A DNA stretch of 64,000 nucleotides from a virus. A model generated the notes under the pieces. It saw only the letters and a list, made by a program, of their open reading frames with translations. It was not told where the DNA came from and did not search any database. This document shows, piece by piece, positions 5,925 to 30,210 of this stretch. The position numbers and the translations under genes are program-made. Position 1 is the first letter of the stretch; each line of letters opens with the position of its first letter. Where the stretch lies: positions 1 to 64,000 of IMG/VR virus record IMGVR_UViG_3300037116_000081. One strand, given 5' to 3'.

Positions 5925-7445
5925 CTAGAAATCTTTCGTTACTGCTTTACGTTCATCTTCTGTCCCTGGCTGTTCTGGATCTTCGTCTTCTTCTTCGGCT
6001 GGTTCATCCGAGAGGAACTGCAAGACAAAAGTCTGCACCTTCTCGGGCGGCTGCAATTGCATGAGCAACTGTTGAACGTTTGGCGCCGCGACTTGCTTTC
6101 GAAGTTCGAAAAGCGCGAGAACTTTCTCCGGCCCCAGCTTTTTCGTTTCCCGATATGAGAAATCTCCGTATTCATCCAGGAACCAATCGCGGAAATGCAT
6201 TCCGGTAGCTTTGTGGAACATGTCCACCATGTGTGGTGTCGCTATGTCGAGCATCGGCCCCATGGTCGCATTGATAAGTTCCAACTCCATGAACATGGTT
6301 TGTTGCTCCGATGTGAGATTGGGATTCATTTGCTGGGGCTGCGGGACGTCAGGCGCGGCCGGTTCGGGAAGGGAATGGTCAGCCTGTACGGTAACGGGCG
6401 GGCGTGGTGGCGGCTTCTGCCCAGCGCGCGCGATGGCAACCTGTGCGACGGCTCCCCCAACTTCTAAAAGCTTTTGGACAACCGGGACAAGCACTCCCGC
6501 CCAATCTGTTCCGGAGCTGGCCGCGCTATTCCCGCGGAACATGCCGGCGATTTCTTTCACGTCGCCCAACTCTTCCTTGAGTGAGCGCCGTGGCTCGGGC
6601 GTGTTGTTCTTCGCGAGCAGTTCGCGTGAGAATTTACGCTCTTCGGAAAGTTCGGATTGCATTGCGGCGAGCTGACTCATCACGAGTTGAACCACTCCCC
6701 CGCCGTCCGACTTGTTGACGCTGAGAATTTTCTCGACCAGCCCCATGAACTGAGCCGGGTTCGCCATCGCCAGCATGCGATCCGCGCTTTTTTCCATACT
6801 CTCTATCACTTTCCCGGCGAGTGAGTTTTGTTCTTCCGGTGCAGCCTCAGGACGAAGTTGCTTGACTGCGTTCACCGCGGCCTTGAACATTTCGGCGGCT
6901 TGATCCATGCCCGCACTCGTGCCGGCCACTTGCTGCTGCTGGATACGCCTCGACTCCGCGGCCTCTAGTAAAGGCTTGGCCCACGCCCAGTCTTTGTTGC
7001 GGCCGTCATTGATCCACTCACCCAGGGGAAGCTTAGGCGGGTAGTTCATGTTCATGATCCGAAAATAGTGACTGTAAGCAGACTTACCGTGGCGGGTTGT
7101 CGGATTAAATAGATTTAATACAGCAAGGTACTTTCCGCTGCCGTACTCTTCCATGACCGACTGCTGATCGATCGGCTGGGTGTACTTCATGATGAAGTTG
7201 TCATTGCCGGTGATCTTCCGGTCGGTGTAGGGCTCACATCGGTACAGGTATATGGTGTATAAGTCCTTCCAATCCTGTTCGGTGAGAGCTTTCAAGCTAT
7301 CGAAGAACGATTCTCCGACGTCCCCCGCTCCCGTGTCGGCTTTTACGTCTCTCGGAGCCCTCGGCCGGCCTGGTGGCCGCTTATCCGGCGGTTCAAGTGG
7401 TTGAGTCTGCTCTTTTTGGATCGGTTCTGCGGTGGTTTCTGCCAC
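5925..7445 (-). CDS. Large AT-hook, coiled-coil protein
   Basis: 506 residues from a GTG with an upstream GGAG. An AT-hook (KRPPGRPRAPR) lies at about residues 23-33. A globular part (about 45-175) contains TARHGKSAYSHYFRIMN-like sequence, followed by Ala/Gln-rich helices, a Pro-rich linker with PKPPPRPP, and an acidic end. It could be a minor-groove DNA-binding protein for packaging, scaffolding or gene control. Its 5' leader contains a parS-like palindrome. Confidence 0.6.
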   Translation of the reverse strand: MAETTAEPIQKEQTQPLEPPDKRPPGRPRAPRDVKADTGAGDVGESFFDSLKALTEQDWKDLYTIYLYRCEPYTDRKITGNDNFIMKYTQPIDQQSVMEEYGSGKYLAVLNLFNPTTRHGKSAYSHYFRIMNMNYPPKLPLGEWINDGRNKDWAWAKPLLEAAESRRIQQQQVAGTSAGMDQAAEMFKAAVNAVKQLRPEAAPEEQNSLAGKVIESMEKSADRMLAMANPAQFMGLVEKILSVNKSDGGGVVQLVMSQLAAMQSELSEERKFSRELLAKNNTPEPRRSLKEELGDVKEIAGMFRGNSAASSGTDWAGVLVPVVQKLLEVGGAVAQVAIARAGQKPPPRPPVTVQADHSLPEPAAPDVPQPQQMNPNLTSEQQTMFMELELINATMGPMLDIATPHMVDMFHKATGMHFRDWFLDEYGDFSYRETKKLGPEKVLALFELRKQVAAPNVQQLLMQLQPPEKVQTFVLQFLSDEPAEEEDEDPEQPGTEDERKAVTKDF

Positions 7446-7604: not shown

Positions 7605-8807
7605 ATGTACGGGTCCTTAGATAGCGCTCCCCTTGCGCCTCCGGATCCGCAATCGTCAACGCCAGCGAGCGCAGCGATCGCGAAAACTGGCCCTATCATT
7701 AAAGAGAAGATCCCCGCGGCGCCCGACACCGACACATCGACTAAGCAGACCATTGCGAAGATGTGCGAGTACATCGCGGCCGGCGCCTCCGATGACGTGT
7801 GCCAGTTATGGGCAAAGCAAGCGCGCGAACGTTGGGCTGGCCAGTTCAACCAAGTAGCGTCTGTAACCGGCCGAATGGTGCCGCAAACCTCAGGCGATTG
7901 TTGGGGCGTGTGGTGGATGGTGAAACACGCCGTCAAGTTCGCGAAGGACGAACCGCGGTTGTTTCAGATCGGTGAGCCCGATGCGCTCGATTTATTGATA
8001 GCGCCCGCGGTGCTCGTGCGTGAACAGGATCGCAAGGAAGATTGCGACGGCTTCACGATGCTGGTGTGCTGCCTACTCAAGATTCTGGGGATCTCATCGG
8101 TCATTGTGACGGTGGCGGCGGACCCATCCGATCCGGAACGCTGGTCGCACGTCTTCCCGATGGCTGAAGTGAACGGTGCGTATCTTCCAATGGACGCATC
8201 GCACGGAAAGTTCCCTGGCTGGATGGTTCCGCGCGATCACATCTCCCGATGGCAGGCTTGGGACCTCAACGGCAATCCAGTGCAGGCGTTTCCGTCACAG
8301 GCGAAGAACACGCTACACGGATATCTTCCACGCGGGGCGCCGATGCGGAAACGCGGGATGCGCGGACTCGGGCAGACGGACTATACATCAGTGGCGAGCT
8401 CCACGGGTGACTACCAAGTTTTCAGTGATGGCACAGTCTTTGATCCGAACGGCAATGTCGTTACAGATTTCAGCGCGTTGCCTAACTCGTTAACGACCCA
8501 GATTAACAGTGCCCTGAATCCGCTGGCCATCAGCACGCCCGCAACGCCAACTGCCACCAGCGCGTCCGGAACCCCTACCAACTGGACCGGCATTATCAAC
8601 AGTATCGTTTCAGGCGGATTGAAAGCAGCGCAGCTTGCGACGTTGCCTCCGGGCTATGTGATCGGCGCGAATGGCCAGCCCGTGTACACAGGGCAGTCCG
8701 CGGCGAATGCACAACTCACATCCAGCTTCGCGAGTATCCTGCCGTGGTTAGCGATTGGATTGGTTGCGGCTGTAGTGGTCATTCCACTTCTTGGGAGCAA
8801 GCAGTGA
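7605..8807 (+). CDS. Transglutaminase-like cysteine protease with RGLGQ site and C-terminal anchor
   Basis: 400 residues from the ATG at 7605; a TTG at 7560 is the alternative but would precede the predicted transcript start. Residues about 85-235 have the order of a transglutaminase-like catalytic core: Cys in KEDCDGFTMLVCCLL, His in RWSHVFPMAEVNG, Asp in YLPMDASHG. Then come KRGMRGLGQTDYTS, a Ser/Thr/Ala-rich stretch, and a membrane helix (LPWLAIGLVAAVVVIPLLG) ending in SKQ. It heads a row of proteins with the same RGLGQ-type motif, so it may process them and itself during particle maturation. That substrate link is inference. Confidence 0.7.
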   Translation: MYGSLDSAPLAPPDPQSSTPASAAIAKTGPIIKEKIPAAPDTDTSTKQTIAKMCEYIAAGASDDVCQLWAKQARERWAGQFNQVASVTGRMVPQTSGDCWGVWWMVKHAVKFAKDEPRLFQIGEPDALDLLIAPAVLVREQDRKEDCDGFTMLVCCLLKILGISSVIVTVAADPSDPERWSHVFPMAEVNGAYLPMDASHGKFPGWMVPRDHISRWQAWDLNGNPVQAFPSQAKNTLHGYLPRGAPMRKRGMRGLGQTDYTSVASSTGDYQVFSDGTVFDPNGNVVTDFSALPNSLTTQINSALNPLAISTPATPTATSASGTPTNWTGIINSIVSGGLKAAQLATLPPGYVIGANGQPVYTGQSAANAQLTSSFASILPWLAIGLVAAVVVIPLLGSKQ

Positions 8808-9557
8808 ATGTACGTCTCTTCAAGATCTTCCGTCTCGCGCTGCACTGGAGTAGCAGCGCGGGGAACAGTCTCGCGATCGCTTGGCGATATCTCCTCACCG
8901 CAGTCCATCAATCAGATAGTAACGGTTGGCGCATCGACTACTGTTGGAATTCTTGTAGCGTTAGGCACGGTTACGGGTCCGATTGGAGCGGCCATCGCTG
9001 GCTTGATCGCAGTTGGCTCGCTTATCGCCAACATGTTTCACGGCTGTGGGCAGACCTGCGTAGTCGCGACACAGGACGCGAACAAGATCGGCGCGTTGCT
9101 CGATCAGAATCAGGCAGCGTATATGAACGCCCCGGTTCACTACAAGAGCTTGCAAGCGGCGGCGCTAAACAACATCAACACGCTCGCGGCGGCATTGCAG
9201 CAAGCGTGCAGCGATCCATCTTTAGGGCAGGCTGGGCAGCGCTGCATCTCCGAAAGATTGGTCAGGCGTCCGTGTCCGAGCACGTTGAACGATTCGAATA
9301 TCGGCGGCGGGCAGATCAAGTTCTGCGATTACTGGAGCTTCTATTACGATCCGATCGCGAACGATCCGAATGTAGTTCCGGACCCCACGCCAGCTTCGTC
9401 GGGTCCAGCTTCAGCGGCGGTCTCTTCGGTGGGCTCCGCAATTTCTTCTGTGCTGCCTTCATCGGTCAGCAGTCTTTTGACCGGGAGCGTCTTTGGTCTT
9501 CCAGTGTGGCTGCTCGGCGCGGTGGCGCTCACGGCCTTGTGGGTGGCGAGCGAATGA
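8808..9557 (+). CDS. Virion-operon membrane protein, element-encoded N-terminus
   Basis: 249 residues. The ATG directly follows the previous stop; codons 5-20 are element E6 read in frame (SVSRCTGVAARG), and I see no later start. A Gly/Ala-rich hydrophobic helix (about 45-75), a cysteine-containing domain (CGQTCVVATQDANKIGALLD, CISERLVRRPCP), a Ser/Ala linker and a C-terminal helix with the FGLPVWLLG signature shared by its neighbours. Probably a membrane-anchored virion component. Confidence 0.6.
   Translation: MYVSSRSSVSRCTGVAARGTVSRSLGDISSPQSINQIVTVGASTTVGILVALGTVTGPIGAAIAGLIAVGSLIANMFHGCGQTCVVATQDANKIGALLDQNQAAYMNAPVHYKSLQAAALNNINTLAAALQQACSDPSLGQAGQRCISERLVRRPCPSTLNDSNIGGGQIKFCDYWSFYYDPIANDPNVVPDPTPASSGPASAAVSSVGSAISSVLPSSVSSLLTGSVFGLPVWLLGAVALTALWVASE
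8836..8860. repeat. Palindromic junction element E6
   Basis: Stem CGCGCTGC/GCAGCGCG, loop ACTGGAGTA. It lies within the first codons of the gene at 8808. Confidence 0.85.
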
Positions 9558-9615
9558 TCCGTTTTCCTCGCATCCTCGCATCATTTTCCTCGCATCCTCG
9601 TATTGCGGAGGCCTT

Positions 9616-10443
9616 GTGTTTCTAAAAGTACAAGCGGGGCTCTCCGGCATCGGCCAAACCGTTCTGATGCGTCAACCAGGCGGGCGCGTGATGCGCGTCC
9701 AAATGCCGATCGTGTTGGATAGGCCTCGGGGGATGCGTGGCTTAGGCGTTACGTGTCCCACGGGCTTGGTGCAGGCTGCAAACGGCGGCTGCATTGATCC
9801 TGGTTACGCTCCCAACAAAAATGTAGCGGCGGCAAGTCCCAAAGCCGTGACCTACGCATCGGCTCCCGGCTGCAACGTGGTGAACCTCGCATCGAACGAA
9901 TGCATGTTGGACGACGGGACAATCACGGGCTGCAACATCATCCAGCAGTGTGATTCGCTCACCGGCAACGCGAGATGTCAGTATGGGCCGTTCCCTGGCC
10001 AAGCTGCTGATCCAAGTTTGCCGTTCTGCTCTGGAAGCGGGCCGTCCGTTTCGTACACGCCGAATTTGAGTCTCACGAACCCGACAGGGCCGTCAACGCC
10101 GTTCACTCCCACGGCGCTTGCGCCGAATGCCGTTCCGGTAGGATCGAGCCCCACGGCGGCGCAGGTTAAAAGCCTGCTTGGGCAGACTCAGCCTACATCG
10201 TCAACGGCAGCGAGTTCGCCGGCGGCATCGCCAACACAGCCGAGTTCCCAAACGAATTTTCTCCAGCAACTCTTAGCCGGGCCGAATCCTCCAGCGGGCG
10301 GATCGACTACGGCGGTGGCGTCTTCGGATAGTTCGTTATTTAGCGGTTCGCTCGACGTGTTCGGTATGCAGATTCCATACTGGCTCATTGGTGTTGTGGT
10401 CGTCGGCGGCGGGATTCTCCTCATGAGCGGGGGCAAGAAATGA
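9616..10443 (+). CDS. Virion-operon protein with two Gly-Leu-Gly motifs and a tail anchor
   Basis: 275 residues from a GTG preceded by GGAGG at ideal distance. AGLSGIGQTVL near residue 8 and RGMRGLGVTCP near residue 40; then a Cys-rich domain (about 8 Cys, 40-140), a Thr/Pro/Ser/Ala-rich stalk, and a C-terminal helix with FGMQIPYWLIG and a GGKK end. Ends with an ATGA overlap to the next gene. Structural, probably stalk-like; function inferred from layout only. Confidence 0.65.
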   Translation: MFLKVQAGLSGIGQTVLMRQPGGRVMRVQMPIVLDRPRGMRGLGVTCPTGLVQAANGGCIDPGYAPNKNVAAASPKAVTYASAPGCNVVNLASNECMLDDGTITGCNIIQQCDSLTGNARCQYGPFPGQAADPSLPFCSGSGPSVSYTPNLSLTNPTGPSTPFTPTALAPNAVPVGSSPTAAQVKSLLGQTQPTSSTAASSPAASPTQPSSQTNFLQQLLAGPNPPAGGSTTAVASSDSSLFSGSLDVFGMQIPYWLIGVVVVGGGILLMSGGKK

Positions 10444-10727
10444 GACGCGGCTTTCGTGGTCTCGGTCAACCATCATCGCCTTTGCCGATGTCACCAGGTG
10501 GATTCTGTCCAACGCTCGGCGCTGTGTGTCCCTACGGCTATACGCTCGACGCGAGCAACTGTCCGAACTATCCATGTCAAGCCGCGGCGGTCGCTACGGC
10601 TACAACCGGAATCGATTTTTCGTTTCTCACAAATCCGGTGATGATTGGAACCATGTCCATTCCGACGTGGGCTATCGGGCTCGCCGTGATCGTGGGCGGC
10701 TACTTCCTGATGGGAGGCAAAAAATAA
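10440..10727 (+). CDS. Small RGLGQ tail-anchored protein
   Basis: 95 residues: MRRGFRGLGQPSS at the start, a short four-Cys region (GFCPTLGAVCPYGY, SNCPNYPCQ), DFSFLTNP, then SIPTWAIG and a membrane helix ending GGKK. It has the whole family architecture in miniature. Coupled to both neighbours. Confidence 0.7.
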   Translation: MRRGFRGLGQPSSPLPMSPGGFCPTLGAVCPYGYTLDASNCPNYPCQAAAVATATTGIDFSFLTNPVMIGTMSIPTWAIGLAVIVGGYFLMGGKK

Positions 10728-11335
10728 TGGCTAAGCAAGACGGCACGATGGGCGAAGTAATCAAGTGGGTTCTGATTTTGGGCGGCGGGTATCTCGCTTA
10801 CGAGTATTTCATTGCGCCGATGCTGGCCACGACTCTGGCGCCCACGACCGGCGTAACGCCAGCAGCTACAACCGTGACGGGCACACCGGTATCGAGCACG
10901 AATACGACGACGGCTACTCCGGTTACTGTGACGACGCCTCCTCCGCCTCCCGTCAATGCGTACCCACTTTCAAACACGATTCCGAATGCAACCGGGACCG
11001 CGGCTACTCTCGCATCAGCCTTGATTGCGCGAGCGACTTCAGACGGTGTTGCAAAGGGCGGATTGGTCAATGGAAGTATCGCCTACACTCCACAGCAGTG
11101 GAATTACATTTTCAACGAAATGAATCCCGGTAACACGAAGAACCTGCCTAGCTCTTCGCAGGCCATGAGCGCGGGCGATTACACACTCGCGCGGGCGACG
11201 GCGTTTGGACAAGCGGGATTGAGCGGGCTCGGACAACTGATGCGCGTCGGGCGAAATACTTTACGGACAGGCGGGCGTCAACCGATGCGAACAGGATATG
11301 TACGGGCAGGAACGCCAATGCGGAGGACCGGATGA
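10727..11335 (+). CDS. N-anchored virion-operon protein with C-terminal GLSGLGQ
   Basis: 202 residues, TAATG start. Here the order is reversed: a membrane helix (about 10-30) comes first, then a Thr/Pro-rich linker, a globular region, and AGLSGLGQLMRVGRN near residue 165 followed by an Arg-rich end. If the motif is a cleavage site, the basic tail would be released. Confidence 0.65.
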   Translation: MAKQDGTMGEVIKWVLILGGGYLAYEYFIAPMLATTLAPTTGVTPAATTVTGTPVSSTNTTTATPVTVTTPPPPPVNAYPLSNTIPNATGTAATLASALIARATSDGVAKGGLVNGSIAYTPQQWNYIFNEMNPGNTKNLPSSSQAMSAGDYTLARATAFGQAGLSGLGQLMRVGRNTLRTGGRQPMRTGYVRAGTPMRRTG

Positions 11336-11694
11336 GACTCTATAGAACTCCGATGCGTGGCTTTCGTGGATTAGGGCAGACGTATCAGACCGTCTCGACT
11401 GCTGCTGGCGACTATCAAGTAGTTACGGCCCCGGACGGAACAGTCACCACTTTTGACCCATCAGGCAACATCGTTTCTGGCGTTGCCGTGGGGCCGCTTC
11501 AAGCTGGCCAATCAGCGCTCGCGTTTTCTGCGTCAATCAATCCATCAGGCTCGGCGGCTCCGGCTTCACTCGCGTCTCTGTTTCCAGGAATGACTGGCAA
11601 TACAACTGTTGCTGGTGTGTCGGTCCCTTCGTGGCTCGTGCCGGTTGCTCTGATAGCTGGCGCGTTTTTCGTCTATAAGGCTTTTGGGAAATGA
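11332..11694 (+). CDS. Small RGLGQ tail-anchored protein
   Basis: 120 residues: PMRGFRGLGQTYQT at the N-terminus, then a TAAGDYQVV...DGTVTTFDPSGNIV segment also present in the protease gene (SSTGDYQVFSDGTVFDPNGNVV), then VSVPSWLVPVALI and a basic end. The shared segment suggests recombination between these genes. ATGA overlaps at both ends. Confidence 0.7.
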   Translation: MRLYRTPMRGFRGLGQTYQTVSTAAGDYQVVTAPDGTVTTFDPSGNIVSGVAVGPLQAGQSALAFSASINPSGSAAPASLASLFPGMTGNTTVAGVSVPSWLVPVALIAGAFFVYKAFGK

Positions 11695-11921
11695 AGAATC
11701 CGGCTCCAACCCGTTTACGTGACGCCGATCCGCGCGGGCGCATGGACGTAGCTGCGTTTCGCTTCGCTGAGAACATGGCAGAAAAAGCAGGCGCGAAGGA
11801 ATTCTGGAATGCGGGCTTGGGTGATTTTGTCGAGACGGTGATTAACGGCACGGTGCCGGCAAAAGCAATCACAGGGCAGGATGTAGCGAAGGCGCTGGGT
11901 TTGGGAGGCAGAAAGCGGTAA
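11691..11921 (+). CDS. Small soluble protein in the virion operon
   Basis: 76 residues, basic ends, helical middle (VAAFRFAENMAEKAGAKEFW, DFVETVINGTVPAKA). It contains NAGLGDF, a weak match to the Gly-Leu-Gly motif, and no membrane helix. Function unknown. Confidence 0.6.
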   Translation: MKNPAPTRLRDADPRGRMDVAAFRFAENMAEKAGAKEFWNAGLGDFVETVINGTVPAKAITGQDVAKALGLGGRKR

Positions 11922-12436
11922 TGCCTTATTTCCGCACAGGAGCACGGATGCGGCGCGGCGTCGGCCAAATCGCTACGGCTACGCTTGGGCCGGCCGGAAC
12001 GGGCATCGCTCAATACGACGCGAGCGGCCGCTACTTGGGCGGGAGCACGATGATGGATGCGTATTGCGGTTCAAGCATCGGGCAGTTCTTCAGTCCGACT
12101 ACGTGCGCGATCCCGACTCCAGCGCAAATCACGGCTACGCAGACTGCGGAACTTGCGACTACTTCAGCTCCCCCAGCAGTGCAGGCGGCGGCGATCGCGG
12201 CGGGCAATGCGCTAGTTGCGCAAGACGCGGCAGCAAACCCGGCAAATTACCAACAGCAGATCGCGGCGTCGAATTGGCCGGAACTTTCAGCGCTGATCGG
12301 TCCCGCGGCGGTGGCTACGTTGTTTCCCGTCGATGTGACGGATCCGAATAATCCAATTCCCCAAGTCCCGTGGCTTCTGATCGGAATTGTAGTGGTGGGC
12401 TTCTCTGTCTTCTACGCATACGGAGGGAAGCATTGA
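11921..12436 (+). CDS. RGVGQ tail-anchored virion-operon protein
   Basis: 171 residues: ARMRRGVGQIATA near residue 12, then an Ala/Thr-rich domain, and a C-terminal helix introduced by VPWLLIGIVVVG and ending YGGKH. Same plan as its neighbours. Confidence 0.65.
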   Translation: MPYFRTGARMRRGVGQIATATLGPAGTGIAQYDASGRYLGGSTMMDAYCGSSIGQFFSPTTCAIPTPAQITATQTAELATTSAPPAVQAAAIAAGNALVAQDAAANPANYQQQIAASNWPELSALIGPAAVATLFPVDVTDPNNPIPQVPWLLIGIVVVGFSVFYAYGGKH

Positions 12437-12768
12437 GCTACATCCAATACACACCGAAAGCTCCACTCTCTACGTGCGTGACGAAGGTGCGTGGGATGGG
12501 GCAGGACGCGACTTCAACTTCGACGGACACCGTAACAGGGCTCTCGATTCCGAATCCGCTTACGATCTTCAGCAATCTTTTTTCATCGACCGACTTTTCA
12601 ACGTGGGGTATAGGTGAGTGGATCGTAATCGCGGGCGTCGGGTTTCTCGCGTTGAAACTCGTTACCGGTGTGCTCTCGGCAGGCAGCGCAGTAAAGAGCA
12701 CGGTTCGTAAGCGGCAGCGGCGAGCGAAGAAGCGGCAAGGGCTGCTGGACGATCTGAGGGATCTATGA
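12433..12768 (+). CDS. RGMGQ membrane protein with basic tail
   Basis: 111 residues from a TTG overlapping the previous stop, with GGAGGG six bases upstream. KVRGMGQDATS near residue 20; FSTWGIGEWIVIAG starts a membrane helix, then a strongly basic tail (RKRQRRAKKRQ). The tail would face the nucleic acid side. Its stop overlaps the mini-ORF start. Confidence 0.65.
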   Translation: MSYIQYTPKAPLSTCVTKVRGMGQDATSTSTDTVTGLSIPNPLTIFSNLFSSTDFSTWGIGEWIVIAGVGFLALKLVTGVLSAGSAVKSTVRKRQRRAKKRQGLLDDLRDL

Positions 12769-12842
12769 GACGACTGAGGGACACCCCGAAAGCTTCAACG
12801 CGCTGCTACTCCAGTGCAGCGCGAAACGGAGAATGTTCATGA
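12765..12842 (+). CDS. Mini-ORF spanning element E7
   Basis: 25 codons. Its ATG overlaps the stop of the gene before (ATGA) and its TGA overlaps the ATG of the gene after (ATGA), so it bridges the gap exactly while passing through E7. Confidence 0.55.
   Translation: MRRLRDTPKASTRCYSSAARNGECS
12799..12823. repeat. Palindromic junction element E7
   Basis: Stem CGCGCTGC/GCAGCGCG, reversed loop TACTCCAGT. Its downstream flank CGGAGAA supplies the SD for the gene at 12839. Confidence 0.88.
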
Positions 12843-13192
12843 GAGGATTCGGTAGCTACAGCAAAACTCCAACTCCATGGGGATGGGAATATTATCCCCC
12901 ACCGTACCGCTTTGCTTCACCGTCCACGGGGCCTAGCGGAATACGTCCGACTTACGCGAGCGCGCGATACATGGGCATGACAACACGAGCGTTGAGCAAC
13001 CAGGGCGGCGGGCTCGGATGTGCGGGGCAGTGCGGTTGCGGTGGGACGTGCGGCATGGGGCAAGTGGATCTTTCGTTTCTGACGAATACGTTCAGCTTGG
13101 CGGGCTACCAGATTCCGGTCTGGATTGGGCTCATGGTTGGGATCGGCGCGGTCGCAATGTACAGCGGGTTGAGCAATAAAAAGAGACGATGA
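12839..13192 (+). CDS. Tail-anchored protein with MRGFG and GMGQ motifs
   Basis: 117 residues; I chose the second ATG because the element's GGAG is 7 bases upstream. MRGFGSYS, an aromatic/Pro stretch, a Gly/Cys cluster (CAGQCGCGGTCGMGQ), DLSFLTN, then YQIPVWIGL with a membrane helix and KKRR end. DLSFLTN is shared with 10440-10727. Confidence 0.65.
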   Translation: MRGFGSYSKTPTPWGWEYYPPPYRFASPSTGPSGIRPTYASARYMGMTTRALSNQGGGLGCAGQCGCGGTCGMGQVDLSFLTNTFSLAGYQIPVWIGLMVGIGAVAMYSGLSNKKRR

Positions 13193-13434
13193 CTTTAACG
13201 CTTTCACAAACGGCGCAACCTCAGATTTTTACCGATATGGGCTCGTATGCCCACGTCGGAGTGGGATTCATGGCCGGGTATCTTTCACCTGGCTGGGCGC
13301 TCGCGATTGCGGCGGCGTTCATCGGGTATCAATTGTCTCAGGTTTCGGCGGGCGTGCCCTGGGGACGGACGGGCGGGGAAGTGATCGAGTTTGCGTTAGG
13401 AGCTGCTATAGCGGCGCTGGTGGCAAAAAAATGA
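13189..13434 (+). CDS. Small hydrophobic membrane protein
   Basis: 81 residues with two hydrophobic helices (about 20-48 and 64-80) and a KK end. In position it closes the anchored-protein array. Unknown; holin-like size but with structural neighbours. Confidence 0.6.
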   Translation: MTLTLSQTAQPQIFTDMGSYAHVGVGFMAGYLSPGWALAIAAAFIGYQLSQVSAGVPWGRTGGEVIEFALGAAIAALVAKK

Positions 13435-14369
13435 AGCGGCGAAAAACCAATTCAGCAAAGTACGGGCGGCGGAATTCAAGCGGCGATACATCAACGGATG
13501 TTCGCAGCCCAACTTCAACTGAAGTGCGAAGCCCTACCAAGACTTCGACTGAAGCTTATACGCAAGGAAACTTCACGGCCACAGTAACGGGCGGCGCAGG
13601 AGCCGGTGCAACTACCAGCGTGACAATCAAACCGAACCGGGGCAGGCGTGATGCTTTCGCGATTTGCAAACGCACGCGCGGGAATCCGTCACGGTGGAAT
13701 CCACTCGTGCCACTCGATCCAATCTCGGTACTTTCGGCGATCGAAGGGCAGCGCGAGAAGATCGCGAAGAAGCTGTTCACGAAGAACGCCAAGAAAGCGC
13801 GGAAGAATCGATTCGGCAAAAAGCGCGTAGTGCTGCACATGAAGCGCGGCAAGTCCGGGAAGTTTGCGCAGCGGAAGAACAGGGGCAATCCCGTCATGGC
13901 GGCAGAGAAGCGCTATCAATCCTTCCACGGCCGGCCTAGCGAAGACTTGGTTAACGTGCGGACCACGCTGCATTCGCATGACGTGCTCGCGGGCATCGGC
14001 GATCTCCGCAAGCTGAAAATCAAATCCGCAAACGGTCACTGGAAAGTAACAGTGAAATTCTTGAAGCCTTACCCGATTCTATCGATGAACGAAGCCGCAA
14101 CCCAGCTTTACATCGAAGGGGGTGATCAATCCGTAGACTTGAGGGACTTCGGAATCAAAACTCCACACGAAAAAGAAATACTCGGTCACGTCACGGACGT
14201 GTGGTACTTCACAACGAAAGATCACTTACGACCGGAAGACGGCGGCACGGCGATCTACCACCACAAATTCGGAAAGATCAAGCCGACGATGATTTACGAC
14301 GTACCGAACCAGCTACTCGAATTCGCGGGTGGCGGCTACACTATCCCGGATGAAGGGATCGACCAATGA
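13431..14369 (+). CDS. Basic protein with conserved C-terminal domain
   Basis: 312 residues. Residues 1-80 are low complexity with repeated RSPT; 80-155 are very basic (KKLFTKNAKKARKNRFGKKR); 155-312 form a folded domain (MAAEKRYQSFHGRPSEDLV, DVLAGIGDLRKLKIKS, TQLYIEGGDQSVDL). Probably binds DNA in the particle. Family not recognised. Confidence 0.6.
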   Translation: MKRRKTNSAKYGRRNSSGDTSTDVRSPTSTEVRSPTKTSTEAYTQGNFTATVTGGAGAGATTSVTIKPNRGRRDAFAICKRTRGNPSRWNPLVPLDPISVLSAIEGQREKIAKKLFTKNAKKARKNRFGKKRVVLHMKRGKSGKFAQRKNRGNPVMAAEKRYQSFHGRPSEDLVNVRTTLHSHDVLAGIGDLRKLKIKSANGHWKVTVKFLKPYPILSMNEAATQLYIEGGDQSVDLRDFGIKTPHEKEILGHVTDVWYFTTKDHLRPEDGGTAIYHHKFGKIKPTMIYDVPNQLLEFAGGGYTIPDEGIDQ

Positions 14370-14620
14370 AAAAGGCGCGCAAGAATATCAGCTTTAGAAA
14401 GTACAAAAAAGAGTTGAACCGCAAGCACTCTCCGGCGAACGCGAGACTCTATCAGTCATTCCGAAAAGAGGAGCAACGTATCGTGAGAGCGCGACGAAAG
14501 AAGGCGGCAAAATCCAATCCGCCAAAGACCCGCAAAGGCAAGACGGGACGCTGGATCAAAGCCAAAGCTGTGAAGGTGACACGAGTCAAAGGAAAGCTTG
14601 TAGTGCAGGTGAAACGGTGA
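14366..14620 (+). CDS. Small highly basic protein
   Basis: 84 residues, about one third Lys/Arg, with ARRKKAAKSNPPKTRKGKTG. Likely nucleic-acid binding, such as a core or packaging protein. ATGA and GTGA overlaps with its neighbours. Confidence 0.6.
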   Translation: MKKARKNISFRKYKKELNRKHSPANARLYQSFRKEEQRIVRARRKKAAKSNPPKTRKGKTGRWIKAKAVKVTRVKGKLVVQVKR

Positions 14621-15981
14621 GTATCGTATCCTTCATCCCGAAAGCCCTGCGCAAGGACAAGCCACCAGTCCCGATGATTAGTCTGTGTCAAACAACGGCG
14701 CGGCTACCGGACGGCTGGAGAGCGGCGGCACAAGCCTGGAAAGACGCGGCGGACAACCCCGGCGACATCGAGCACGTTATTGTAACGGACGATCCAGCCT
14801 TCAAGGCGGAGCCCATATTCGCGGATACGAAGATCGGCGTGAACAAGGGCCGGCATTCCGCGGTTGACGGCTGGAACACTTCAGCGCAACTCTCAACGGG
14901 AAAGTTCCTCATCACGCTTGCGGATGACTGGTTCCCCTGCCCTCACTGGGATACAGAATTTCTGAAGCTCATCCCGGATCTTGACGGCGAGTACGTTTTG
15001 GAAGTGGACACGGGAGGGAATCCCGGCCTGCTGACATTCTCGCTTCTGACTCGGAAGTATTACGAGCGCTACGGGTATTTTTTCTGGCCTCAGTATCTCG
15101 GCATGTACGCTGACAACGAATTCACGATTGTGGCGCGGCGTGACGGCGTGGTGATCGACGCGAAGCATTTATTCTGCGAACATCGGCACCCGCTCTACGG
15201 CTTCGGCGAGATGGACGAGACTCACAAGCATCAACACCGGCGCGAAGCCTTCGAGGTAGGCGAAGAGGTTTATCGGCGGCGGCTTTTGCATCTCGGGTTC
15301 GCCCAGCAGTATGTTCCGCCCCGCAGTTATTCGATCGCGATTTGTATGCCGGGTGAATCGTTCAAACCGGACTGGGTAGCCAACACTCTGAAGCTCACGA
15401 ACTACATTGCGGCGGAAGCGAGTGTTTTTCCGATGCCTGGCTACGCTCCAAATCCGCACATCGTTCGGCAGGGCATGTCAAGCGAAATCCAAAAGATAGA
15501 GCCGATGCCGGATCTGGTGTTGTGGATTGACCACGATAACCTGGTCGCCCCGATTCACTTCGCGCGGCTGTACGGGGTCCTGAAGGAACATCCGGAGATC
15601 GACGGCGTAGCAGGCTGGTGTTATTGGGGGCAAGAAGAAGGGCCACTCAACATCTCGTGTGGCGTTTATGGCGATGGGCGCCGGCATTATTTCAGCGAAG
15701 CCGAATTGCGGAACGGGCCGGAACTCAGGGAGATTGATTTCACCGGCTTCCCGTGCTTTCTGATGCGCGGCGAGACGCTGAAGAAAGCCGGCAAGAATGC
15801 TTTCGCGCCGATATCGGATGAAACTTTCCCGTACGGTTTCGTTCCGGAAGACCTCGCGTTTTGCAGACGGGCGAAAGAAGCGGGATGTAGGTTCATGGTG
15901 GACCGGACGGTTTACGTCCCCCATCGGAAGGTCCAAACGTTGGAGCCCAGGGAAGGGAATAAAAAGCTTTCAGTTGCGTAG
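14617..15981 (+). CDS. Tandem family-2-like glycosyltransferase
   Basis: 454 residues, GTG start. Two GT-A-like halves: residues about 15-220 (ISLCQTTARLPDGW, TLADDWFPCPHWD) and about 235-454 (YSIAICMPGESFK, DLVLWIDHDNLV, FVPEDLAFCRRAKEAGC). ADD and DHD are candidate metal/nucleotide sites. In phages such enzymes modify virion proteins, DNA or host surface sugars. The location among structural genes favours virion or surface glycosylation. Confidence 0.65.
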   Translation: MSIVSFIPKALRKDKPPVPMISLCQTTARLPDGWRAAAQAWKDAADNPGDIEHVIVTDDPAFKAEPIFADTKIGVNKGRHSAVDGWNTSAQLSTGKFLITLADDWFPCPHWDTEFLKLIPDLDGEYVLEVDTGGNPGLLTFSLLTRKYYERYGYFFWPQYLGMYADNEFTIVARRDGVVIDAKHLFCEHRHPLYGFGEMDETHKHQHRREAFEVGEEVYRRRLLHLGFAQQYVPPRSYSIAICMPGESFKPDWVANTLKLTNYIAAEASVFPMPGYAPNPHIVRQGMSSEIQKIEPMPDLVLWIDHDNLVAPIHFARLYGVLKEHPEIDGVAGWCYWGQEEGPLNISCGVYGDGRRHYFSEAELRNGPELREIDFTGFPCFLMRGETLKKAGKNAFAPISDETFPYGFVPEDLAFCRRAKEAGCRFMVDRTVYVPHRKVQTLEPREGNKKLSVA

Positions 15982-16523: not shown

Positions 16524-17390
16524 ATGGCGCAGACCACACGAGAAAGAATTATCGCAAACCGAGGGAAGCGGAAAATGTCTGCAAAGCAAATCCGCATCTT
16601 CGGCACGCGCGCGCAAAAGGCGCGGCTCCGCGGAACGCGGAAGCGCGCAAACTCTTCGCGGTCGAATCATCGCCGTCGATCGCGATCCAACAAGGGCGAG
16701 ATCATAGGTTACACGTTTGCTCAACCGGCAAGCAGAAAGAACAGAGGTAGGAAGATGGCAGCTACAAAGACAAAACGTAGACGCCGTGCCCGCTCCGGTG
16801 GGCATCGCGTTAACCGTCGTCGAAACACTGGGCGTCGGAGAAATTTCGTTCACCATCGCCGTCGCGGCACCATGCGGCGCATGAACCGCGGGCGTCGTCG
16901 GAATCCCGGCATGCTAGGAACGGGGCGAATCTCATCCATCGCGATCAATGCAGTATTCGTGATCGTCGGTGCGGTGGGCTCGAAGCTCCTGGCCCAAATG
17001 GTCCTCGGGACAAACAACACCGGCGTAGTCGGATACGCGGCGAATGCGATCGCGGGCGGCGCAATGTGGTTCGTGGCTGAAAAAGTCATGCACAACACAG
17101 ACGCAGCCAATGGCATCATCGCAGGTACCGCGGTCGAAATCATCCTTCGGTTGATTAACGACTACACGCCGTTCGGTTCCTACGTGGCGGGCCTCGGCAT
17201 GGGCGATTACCAGGCGCAAGCTTGGCTGACTCCCCAGGTCCTGGTTGACCCGTACAAAAACGCCAACATTCAGTGGCCTCAAGGGTTACTCTCGGCCGTA
17301 ACCCCGCCTCCCGCGGCAGTCATGCCGGCTTCGGTCGGCATTGCAAGCGGGATGGGGGATCTCTACGGCGGGAAGTCTTCGCTGTACTAA
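16524..17390 (+). CDS. Arg-rich DNA-binding membrane protein
   Basis: 288 residues. Residues 1-135 are extremely Arg-rich (RRRRARSGGHRVNRRRN, HHRRRGTMRRMNRGRRR). Residues about 140-215 hold two to three helices with Gly/Ala faces, then a Pro-rich end containing AGLGMGDYQ and ASGMGDLYGG, which resemble the operon's Gly-Met-Gly motif. An internal ATG at 16755 with upstream AGAGGTAGG could give a shorter product. It could tether the genome to a membrane or shell. Confidence 0.6.
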   Translation: MAQTTRERIIANRGKRKMSAKQIRIFGTRAQKARLRGTRKRANSSRSNHRRRSRSNKGEIIGYTFAQPASRKNRGRKMAATKTKRRRRARSGGHRVNRRRNTGRRRNFVHHRRRGTMRRMNRGRRRNPGMLGTGRISSIAINAVFVIVGAVGSKLLAQMVLGTNNTGVVGYAANAIAGGAMWFVAEKVMHNTDAANGIIAGTAVEIILRLINDYTPFGSYVAGLGMGDYQAQAWLTPQVLVDPYKNANIQWPQGLLSAVTPPPAAVMPASVGIASGMGDLYGGKSSLY

Positions 17391-17489: not shown

Positions 17490-18173
17490 ATGGCATATGG
17501 CGCAAACGGCCAGATCCCAACTGCTGAAGAAGCTCAGGGCAGAAACACAAACTCGATCATGCAGGGCTTTGTTGATCGTGGCCCCTGGCAGTATTGGGAC
17601 GACATCTATTTCGCAAATGCGACGGTAGTTCCGCCGCAAATCCAAATCTTTCAAAACGCCATTGGGCAACAGAACCCCCAAGGCGCAGTAGGCGGTCCCA
17701 CCAACGGCGTGGCGAAAACCAAGCTCCAAACGAACTTGACTCGCCCCGCTTCGAGCGGGCTCCCGCCTCCCCGTTGTCTTTTGCTTCTGGCCATTGGGTT
17801 CGAGTTCTCCTCGAACTTCTTGAAGCCGGATATCGACGCGATTCTCAACTCCTGTTACATGGAGTTCCGCATCGACGACAAGATTTTCCACGAAGGGTGG
17901 CTCGTAACCTTTCCGGCCGGTGCGGGGCTCATGGGAGTCACGCAAAATTCGGGCGAGTCCGTGTACACGTGCGGATTCCCGGCTCCCCAGGCTCAACGGC
18001 GGTACGCTGACTGGGCCAAGTACATTGCTCCGCTTCAGCAGTTCTCCATGGTGCTGAATTTCGGCGGCGGCGGCGTGGCGGCCCCGACTATCGGAACCGG
18101 ATTGACGACCATCAACTATCCTGGCAACCTACGAGTTGTCTTGGATGGCTTGACAGATCGGTCGGTTCAGTAA
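17490..18173 (+). CDS. Candidate major capsid or shell protein
   Basis: 227 residues, SD AGAAGGAAA. Beta-rich throughout: IGFEFSSNFLKPDIDAIL, YMEFRIDDKIFHEGWLV, FPAGAGLMG, IAPLQQFSMVLNFGG, NLRVVLDGLTDRSVQ. Its own hairpin upstream and a terminator-like hairpin downstream suggest separate, high expression, as usual for a major structural protein. The pattern could fit a jelly-roll fold, but I recognise no specific family; confidence in the capsid role is low. Confidence 0.4.
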   Translation: MAYGANGQIPTAEEAQGRNTNSIMQGFVDRGPWQYWDDIYFANATVVPPQIQIFQNAIGQQNPQGAVGGPTNGVAKTKLQTNLTRPASSGLPPPRCLLLLAIGFEFSSNFLKPDIDAILNSCYMEFRIDDKIFHEGWLVTFPAGAGLMGVTQNSGESVYTCGFPAPQAQRRYADWAKYIAPLQQFSMVLNFGGGGVAAPTIGTGLTTINYPGNLRVVLDGLTDRSVQ

Positions 18174-28387: not shown

Positions 28388-28546
28388 ATGACACTACAGG
28401 TCTGTGACGTATGCCGATTAGTAGACGGAGACTTGTCAGTGAAGTTGTGCGACTGGTGCCAATCCTGTAAAGCGTGGATATGTCAGAAGGACTGGAATAA
28501 CTGGCCCCGGCGCTCGCTCGCGGCTATTCGGAGAATGAGACAATGA
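28388..28546 (+). CDS. 52-residue zinc-binding protein
   Basis: CDVC, CDWCQSC and a later Cys give a compact zinc site, followed by a Trp/Arg-rich end. Its stop overlaps the lysozyme start (ATGA). Function unknown. Confidence 0.5.
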   Translation: MTLQVCDVCRLVDGDLSVKLCDWCQSCKAWICQKDWNNWPRRSLAAIRRMRQ

Positions 28547-29163
28547 ACCCCCTCGGCACACCAGCTTACTTACCAGGCATCGACGTTTCGCACTTCCAGG
28601 GAGTCATAGACTGGCAGCGCGTGAAAGCGGCGGGCATCGGATTCGCATTTATCAAGGCGACGGATGGGACAGGCTTTGTGGACCCGCAACTGAACTACAA
28701 TGCTCTTGCTTGCCAAGCGCTGAGTATCCCGTTCGGGCTTTACCATTTCTTCCGGCCCACCGCGGACTCTGCGTCACAGGCTCAGTTTTTCCTGGCCAAC
28801 ACCAAGCCCTATACCCCGTTGCTTCCGCCTGCGCTTGATCTGGAACTCGGCCCGGTGACAACGAGTCAAGCGGCTACATGGCTCGACATCGTAGACGTGG
28901 CGCTTGGCCGCGAATCTCTGGTGTACACTGCCCCGGCTTTCGCGGCCGAGAATTTTAACGGCGAAAACTCAGGACTGATCAGCGTCTATCCCCTCTGGAT
29001 TGCAGAGTACACAACCAAACCTGCCCCAACTGTGCCGGCCGCGTGGGAAGATTGGGAATTCTGGCAGCACACCCCGAGTGGACAAGTTGACGGAGTACCG
29101 AATGCAGTAGACTTAGATTGGTTCCATGGAACAGCCGACGATTTAAGGGCATGGGTGAAATGA
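28543..29163 (+). CDS. GH25 muramidase (endolysin)
   Basis: 206 residues. GIDVSHFQGVIDWQRVKAAG, GFAFIKATDGTGFVDPQLNYN, FGLYHFFRP, PALDLELG, LWIAEYTTKPAP and FWQHTPSGQVDG are the landmarks of GH25 lysozymes; the DxE in PALDLELG is catalytic. It cleaves the glycan strands of peptidoglycan at lysis. No cell-wall-binding domain. Distinct from the GH24 enzyme at 43250. Confidence 0.9.
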   Translation: MNPLGTPAYLPGIDVSHFQGVIDWQRVKAAGIGFAFIKATDGTGFVDPQLNYNALACQALSIPFGLYHFFRPTADSASQAQFFLANTKPYTPLLPPALDLELGPVTTSQAATWLDIVDVALGRESLVYTAPAFAAENFNGENSGLISVYPLWIAEYTTKPAPTVPAAWEDWEFWQHTPSGQVDGVPNAVDLDWFHGTADDLRAWVK

Positions 29164-29676: not shown

Positions 29677-30210
29677 GTGTACCTCTACTACCAACCCCGG
29701 CGAAGAAGAGGCTTCGGTGATCTCTCAACCGTTGCGGCCGCGATTCAGCAAATTGAAGGTTGGGCGCCCGGTACACGATCTTACCGCAATAACAATCCTG
29801 GGAACCTGATGTACGCGGGGCAACCCGGCGCGACTGGCCAAGATCCTCAAGGCTTCGCAATCTTTCCGGATTATCAAACCGGGCTCACGGCGCTCGACAA
29901 TCAAATCACACTCGACGCTTCGCGCGGCCAGACCATTTCGCAGTTCACGTCCATCTATGCCCCGGCGTCAGACGGAAATAACCCCACGTCGTATGCGGCG
30001 CAAATAGCTTCAGCGGCCGGCCTCTCACCTTCAGACTCACTTTCAGCAGCAATCGCGGGCTCCAGCTCGGCGCCCGACGTTTCAAGCGGTATGGATCTCT
30101 CATCGCTGTTTCCGTCGCTCAGCCTTCCGTCAATCGACTTCACGGACCCGACGACAATTGCCGTAACGGTGGGGATCGGCCTGGCGCTGGCGTGGGCACT
30201 GAATGCGTAA
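29677..30210 (+). CDS. Lysozyme-like virion protein with tail anchor
   Basis: 177 residues, GTG start. The N-terminus RRRRGFGDLST resembles the operon's Gly-motif; residues 15-110 (AIQQIEGWAPGTRSYRNNNP, GNLMYAG, FAIFPDYQTGLTALDNQI) resemble phage lysozyme/transglycosylase-like domains with the NNNPGNL signature; a Ser-rich linker and a C-terminal helix (TIAVTVGIGLALAWALNA). Probably a virion-bound peptidoglycan hydrolase for entry. Confidence 0.65.
   Translation: MYLYYQPRRRRGFGDLSTVAAAIQQIEGWAPGTRSYRNNNPGNLMYAGQPGATGQDPQGFAIFPDYQTGLTALDNQITLDASRGQTISQFTSIYAPASDGNNPTSYAAQIASAAGLSPSDSLSAAIAGSSSAPDVSSGMDLSSLFPSLSLPSIDFTDPTTIAVTVGIGLALAWALNA

Follow-up and report, generated by a model that had tools for sequence, protein, structure and literature searches.

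The window analysed here is a stretch of 64,000 nucleotides, bases 1-64000 of the 85,924-base IMG/VR record IMGVR_UViG_3300037116_000081. From position 7605 it carries an operon-like run of plus-strand genes with stop/start overlaps, which opens with a gene for a putative transglutaminase-like cysteine protease and continues into an array of membrane proteins that share a short glycine-containing site. Most of the array gene starts are pinned by overlap with the stop of the preceding gene. The features that bear on our analysis are the following, where SSIP-1 stands for Salisaeta icosahedral phage 1 and Phi for L, M, V, F or I.

5925-7445, minus strand: gene of 506 aa, divergent, upstream of the protease (family K12, 10 of 17 related records)
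7605-8807, plus strand: predicted transglutaminase-like cysteine protease of 400 aa with a linker site and a C-terminal membrane anchor (relatives, alignment, fold search, SSIP-1 gp34)
8043-8045, plus strand: codon of Cys147 (EDCDGF), invariant in 12 homologues, putatively catalytic
8148-8150, plus strand: codon of His182 (WSHV), invariant in 12 homologues, putatively catalytic
8193-8195, plus strand: codon of Asp197 (MDASHG), invariant in 12 homologues, putatively catalytic
8361-8375, plus strand: RGLGQ of the protease linker, in a low-pLDDT stretch
8808-9557, plus strand: C-anchored protein, core family K2 (17 of 17 records); apparently decayed site RSLGD at 8874-8888
9616-10443, plus strand: C-anchored protein ending QIPYWLIG...GGKK; RGLGV at 9736-9750, SGIGQ at 9643-9657
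10440-10727, plus strand: C-anchored protein ending SIPTWAIG...GGKK; RGLGQ at 10455-10469
10727-11335, plus strand: N-anchored protein with an Arg-rich C-terminal tail; SGLGQ at 11222-11236 (SGLG and Arg-rich tail kept in relatives L006 and L048)
11332-11694, plus strand: C-anchored protein ending SVPSWLVP...AFGK; RGLGQ at 11365-11379, kept in L006
11921-12436, plus strand: C-anchored protein ending QVPWLLIG...GGKH; RGVGQ at 11954-11968, kept in L006
12433-12768, plus strand: membrane protein of family K7 with a basic tail; RGMGQ at 12490-12504
12833-13192, plus strand: C-anchored K7 protein; RGFGS, GGLGC and CGMGQ around a Cys/Gly-rich peptide
13431-14369, plus strand: core protein, family K3, with a basic RGNP-containing N-terminal part (16 of 17 records)
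16524-17390, plus strand: family K9, an Arg-rich leader, then a membrane segment and GMGDYQ; SGMGD near the C terminus
17490-18173, plus strand: probable capsid protein, family K5/F6, jelly-roll-like model (16 of 17 records, Foldseek)
28543-29163, plus strand: GH25 lysozyme (Pfam Glyco_hydro_25, E 8.9e-41)
29677-30210, plus strand: C-anchored protein, family K14; RGFGD at 29707-29721

The genes and motifs listed by an earlier, sequence-only reading of this DNA are found at the positions it gave or no more than a few bases away, and so are the two sites it had considered looser, in the genes at 16524 (GLGMGDYQ and SGMGD) and 29677 (RGFGD). Its list passed over the 8808 protein, whose RSLGDISS aligns with RGMGDISS in one relative and which, on that alignment, we read as a member with a decayed site. 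Of the two sites it assigned to the 9616 protein, RGLGV is kept in the closest relative (L006, 71%), whereas SGIGQ reads SGLPQ there and is probably not a genuine site. Likewise, its description of the array as tail-anchored applies to most members but not to the 10727 protein, which is reversed, with its anchor N-terminal and its site C-terminal.

Pfam and PHROGs searches with the window's proteins gave nothing useful for the protease or the array, and the 506-aa product of the upstream gene was without a match in Pfam; in a distant group of related records, a different family (K28) takes the place of this gene. A glycosyltransferase-like gene lies within the structural run at 14617-15981, with further ones in related records. 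A dispersed repeat ending like ...CAGTGCAGCGCGAAACGGAGA precedes many genes of the window, for example just before 12833 and around 8850, and yields peptides such as TPVQRETE when translated through.

The protein at 7605

The Cys-His-Asp core that the sequence-only reading saw in the first gene is borne out by an alignment of 12 homologues, in which Cys147, His182 and Asp197 are invariant at identities down to 29%. A first search of viral contigs yielded 11 relatives, and one more was added later. Structure prediction, which that reading had put forward as a check, gave an AlphaFold2 model with a core of moderate confidence. In a Foldseek search of the PDB, the top matches of this model were 3ISR and 3KD4, both transglutaminase-like cysteine proteases, followed by TglA, PNGase, LapG and CPR-C4, with PeiP also among the matches and most of the next matches being transglutaminase-like enzymes. 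The best match had an E-value of 3.4e-3 at a probability of 1.00 and none reached E <= 0.001, which we attribute to the medium confidence of the model. Pfam Transglut_core matched three of the 12 homologues weakly (best E 0.033), the protease profile matched no chain among PDB sequences at E up to 1, and tblastn of the window protease against phage records gave no match. Together, the order of the triad and the predicted core fold place the 7605 product, with the caution due to a model, in the transglutaminase-like cysteine protease superfamily.

The MRGLGQ noted earlier between the catalytic part and the C-terminal anchor lies within residues 230-258, where pLDDT falls below 50, suggesting that the linker which bears it is probably a flexible stretch. 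This layout of core, linker with site, tail and anchor defines a fused group of proteases, and the core motif of the site, GPhiG, is present in the linker of 9 of the 11 homologues tested, SSIP-1 gp34 included, compared with 3.5 expected; in one homologue (L007) the linker has GLSG instead. In a split group (G007-G011 and G014-G016) the core and the site-bearing anchored part are separate adjacent genes, so that the protease gene is without a linker site and the motif sits in the next gene. Distant proteases (L012-L016, L044) carry RG[MVLQ]G[VF] immediately ahead of the EDCDGF active-site stretch.

The shared site and its carriers

The site that the sequence-only reading described as RGLGQ-like is real, but that definition proved too narrow: what stays constant is G-[LMVFI]-G, while a preceding R and a following Q or D are preferences. 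Among 75 first sites in C-anchored proteins, 28 have R, 27 Q and 17 D at these positions, and 53 have L or M in the middle. Across 12 genomes, GPhiG occurs within the first 60 residues of 99 of the 223 proteins of the block against 34.3 expected (maximum 46 in 300 shuffles), whereas no excess is seen for genes outside the block (45 of 546 against 49.8 expected), nor for Gly-x-Gly with any other middle residue inside it (67 against 83.8). A wider count, over 17 records and leaving out membrane helices, finds GPhiG close to the N terminus in 68 of 109 C-anchored proteins of the block (expected 19.1, maximum 30), and there is no excess near the C terminus (12 against 15.1). These counts come from related genomes, which are not independent samples, and from a mechanical gene caller, which makes start codons, and hence leader lengths, uncertain. 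The sites use each of the four Gly codons and a wide range of codons for Phi, which argues for selection on the protein rather than on the DNA and rules out a DNA-level repeat as the origin of the motif.

The motif is shared, as had been claimed, by many otherwise different membrane proteins, and every one of the 17 related records has it next to the protease. Its place is the end distal to the membrane anchor, and it also lies inside the fused protease, where a signal acting through a free N terminus could not work. In family K7, GPhiG precedes the shared domain in all 15 members called, and the unalignable leaders, 2 to about 90 residues long, stop at it. G[MV]GDYQ is kept in 11 of 11 K9 members, and in family K14 GPhiG is found in the N-terminal leader of six other members, the closest relative having RRRGVGDL. 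The 12833-13192 product has GPhiG on either side of a Cys/Gly-rich, CGCGGxCGG-like peptide; a similar peptide, flanked in the same way, occurs in the multi-site K34 proteins of G007-G011, in which a DFV...VPENPVMRG unit is also repeated between sites. Identity upstream of the site is 8%, only twofold lower than the 16% found downstream. An analysis of identity by offset around all sites was discarded, as a few families dominate it and the pairing of sites is biased.

The anchors have features of their own. Among 115 C-anchored proteins, [ILVF]Px[WIL] marks the start of the helix in 34 (7.4 expected) and a G..K/R/H terminus ends 55 (3.3 expected). The IPxW ending that had been ascribed to most of the array, or a close form of it, is present in about seven of ten window proteins but absent from those at 12433 and 10727. 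A positive tail follows the anchor in 93 of the 115 and a neutral or negative stretch lies ahead of the helix in 103, a charge pattern from which the positive-inside rule predicts that the site-bearing part faces away from the cytoplasm.

SSIP-1 and the related genomes

Contrary to the earlier statement that no described phage system matches, a profile of the protease family finds gp34 of SSIP-1 (E 2.5e-15) among the 57 proteins of that phage. SSIP-1 is a membrane-containing icosahedral phage with a circular 44-kb dsDNA genome and two types of capsid protein, which have been reviewed as two vertical single beta-barrel proteins (PMC6356626, PMC6260650, PMC4958249). Gp34 is annotated as a structural (virion) protein, scores above the cut-off for Pfam Transglut_core (E 8.9e-7) and shows, in order, Transglut_core, VRARGMGEPTQ, an IDW stretch, and LPYL with a C-terminal anchor. 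It is a full-length relative of the 7605 protease with the same layout of protease, RARGMGE and anchor, and together with Foldseek it backs the transglutaminase-like fold put forward by the sequence-only reading. A search with gp34 hit SSIP-1 itself and otherwise only an archaeal pleolipovirus and a faecal record of 4.5 kb, both of them weakly and judged generic. In the literature searched, we found no paper naming both Salisaeta and transglutaminase.

Like the window's group, SSIP-1 has a circular dsDNA genome of tens of kb and a cassette with several small anchored proteins; unlike it, SSIP-1 is annotated with a virion ATPase (gp40), of which no counterpart was found in that group, and apart from a serine recombinase its other proteins show no clear similarity. 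The excess of the motif in SSIP-1 proteins other than gp34 is not significant (4 against 2.2 expected, P 0.14). The low-confidence model of the 17490-18173 product is jelly-roll-like and retrieves for the most part viral coats of jelly-roll type in Foldseek, the best viral match being I1ZBH9, of 211 aa; SSIP-1 gp46 is also 211 aa long, although the identity of the two is unconfirmed. The link through gp34 is independent of this structure match. Sequence comparison of the coat candidate with SSIP-1 gp45 and gp46 gave no match, nor did its profile against PDB sequences, and the models, at low confidence, offer one jelly-roll-like candidate here against two capsid proteins in SSIP-1.

Among the 17 related records, the protease and K2 are present in all, and K3, K4 and the coat candidate in 16. 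In nine (G001-G005, G008, G012, G013 and G015; 33-58 kb) the two ends repeat the same 67-127 bases, which is the pattern of complete circular assemblies, and we regard them as complete circular genomes. Gene calling in these circular genomes gave no terminase, portal or HK97 capsid gene, and no S78-type protease was recognised; the one TerL family tested was also absent, which is a weak test as it missed a probable terminase in the right half of the window as well. P-loop genes are missing from most related records, and no P-loop packaging ATPase was recognised in eight complete circular genomes of 33-45 kb (G001-G005, G012, G013 and G015). A HerA-like ATPase was set aside as the packaging motor, being present only in G008, G009 and G011. 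By analogy with SSIP-1, we infer a tailless, membrane-containing virus. A 41-kb contig (L056, PMAK01000004.1) from a Phycisphaerales metagenome-assembled genome bin has the protease and the coat candidate; this binning may be a hint of the host or a case of a mis-binned virus.

In the record from which the window comes, two phage genomes, each about 43 kb long, seem to have been linked through homologous segments, either by a real fusion or by mis-assembly: sequence from 41.6-43.2 kb recurs, at 72-95% identity, at the contig end together with 0-1.9 kb. Left of the join lies the SSIP-1-like genome, whose length of about 43 kb is near that of the 44-kb circular relative G001, and right of it are genes that by eye are siphovirus-like (long tape-measure-like, portal-like, capsid-like and P-loop terminase-like). 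Only the left half therefore bears on the protease. Several accessory genes occur in both halves.

Possible roles of the protease and the site

We favour the reading, to which we give a probability of about 0.62, that the 7605 gene belongs to a tailless, membrane-containing phage related to SSIP-1 and encodes a membrane-anchored virion maturation protease of transglutaminase fold, which releases itself and cuts its neighbours at GPhiG; that the motif is cut, and that this protease cuts it, are both inferred. During assembly, the protease would free itself from its anchor at RGLGQ and would cut neighbouring virion membrane proteins at GPhiG, at the end farthest from their anchors, thereby taking off terminal peptides that are short and often rich in Arg, and splitting multi-site proteins in some relatives. 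Cutting by the adjacent protease is the simplest reading because the protease is always present and the site recurs in its linker and in families K7, K9, K14 and K34. Counting against cleavage are the many leaders of just 3-10 residues, which are short for a propeptide, the small difference in identity across the site, the GLSG of L007, the non-significant excess in SSIP-1, the weak Foldseek values and the absence of a linker site in the split group.

The nearest parallel is adenain (AVP), likewise a cysteine protease that cuts many virion precursors at short sites, and the Arg-rich tails described here resemble pVIc, the basic peptide released in adenovirus. As the sequence-only reading had remarked, the likeness lies in the site and not in the fold: we found no relation in sequence or fold, adenain (peptidase family C5) is absent among the best 50 structure matches listed for the 7605 model, and the substrates here, unlike those of adenain, are mostly membrane-anchored. 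The sites reported for adenovirus, IVGL/G and QRGF/G among them (PMC4246237), are much like xRGL/G here and suggest that the bond cut could be Phi/G, although G/x is equally possible. LapG and other bacterial transglutaminase-like cysteine proteases have the fold class, by structure search, and Cys-His-Asp in common with the 7605 protein but are cellular and act on other substrates. S78-type prohead proteases of tailed phages are likewise phage maturation proteases but belong to a serine enzyme family and serve HK97-type capsids (PMC6563490).

The main rival is that GPhiG is an uncut docking motif, an assembly address by which the membrane-distal ends insert into a common partner such as the capsid shell, a vertex or the protease-like protein. 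The position of the site near a terminus and distal to the anchor would suit docking, as would leaders of only 2-5 residues and the several copies in some proteins. By itself, however, docking explains neither a protease with an invariant triad in every record nor the motif in the linker between its two domains, and we consider it improbable, if the most serious of the alternatives.

The transglutaminase-like protein might instead serve in cell-wall entry or lysis, or be a structural relic, with the motif processed by a host peptidase or otherwise used. Cell-wall peptides are the substrates of some relatives of the fold with solved structures (PeiP is among the matches), and a lysis gene lies nearby; yet the genome already has a dedicated wall hydrolase, and the motif is kept beside the protease gene in viruses with little else in common, which makes such a role unlikely. 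We give still less credence to a true transglutaminase or transpeptidase that would join the Gln of RGLGQ to the Lys of GGKK, or read the site as a ligation signal, and so cross-link virion membrane proteins. The fold, the Gln at 27 of the 75 sites and the Lys/Arg-rich ends are compatible with this activity, but most sites have D, A, L or another residue in place of Gln, both Gly are constant where Gln is not, and many tails carry Arg or His rather than Lys. That the motif reflects chance or Gly-rich composition is scarcely credible: the proteins are Gly-rich and GPhiG is found in membrane helices, but the shuffles without helices and the controls with other middle residues and outside the block contradict it.

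Returning to cleavage by the 7605 protease, a bolder version would have the adenovirus scheme invented independently in a widespread phage lineage, membrane-containing, with circular dsDNA and with no recognisable packaging ATPase, whose transglutaminase-fold protease releases Arg-rich end peptides and peptides from multi-site proteins, possibly as DNA-bound cofactors; we regard this as improbable. To our knowledge, the transglutaminase-like fold is not associated with virion maturation, and our literature search found no described viral case. As SSIP-1 was brought into culture together with its host, and as its gp34 carries a virion annotation, the protease claim is directly testable on an existing phage. 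SSIP-1 itself moves from a singleton to a lineage of at least 17 records. If the favoured reading is true, this lineage would add a new protease fold to virion maturation, bacterial viruses would have converged with adenovirus on Gly-x-Gly cutting of many substrates, and a function would be assigned to a run of unknown genes.
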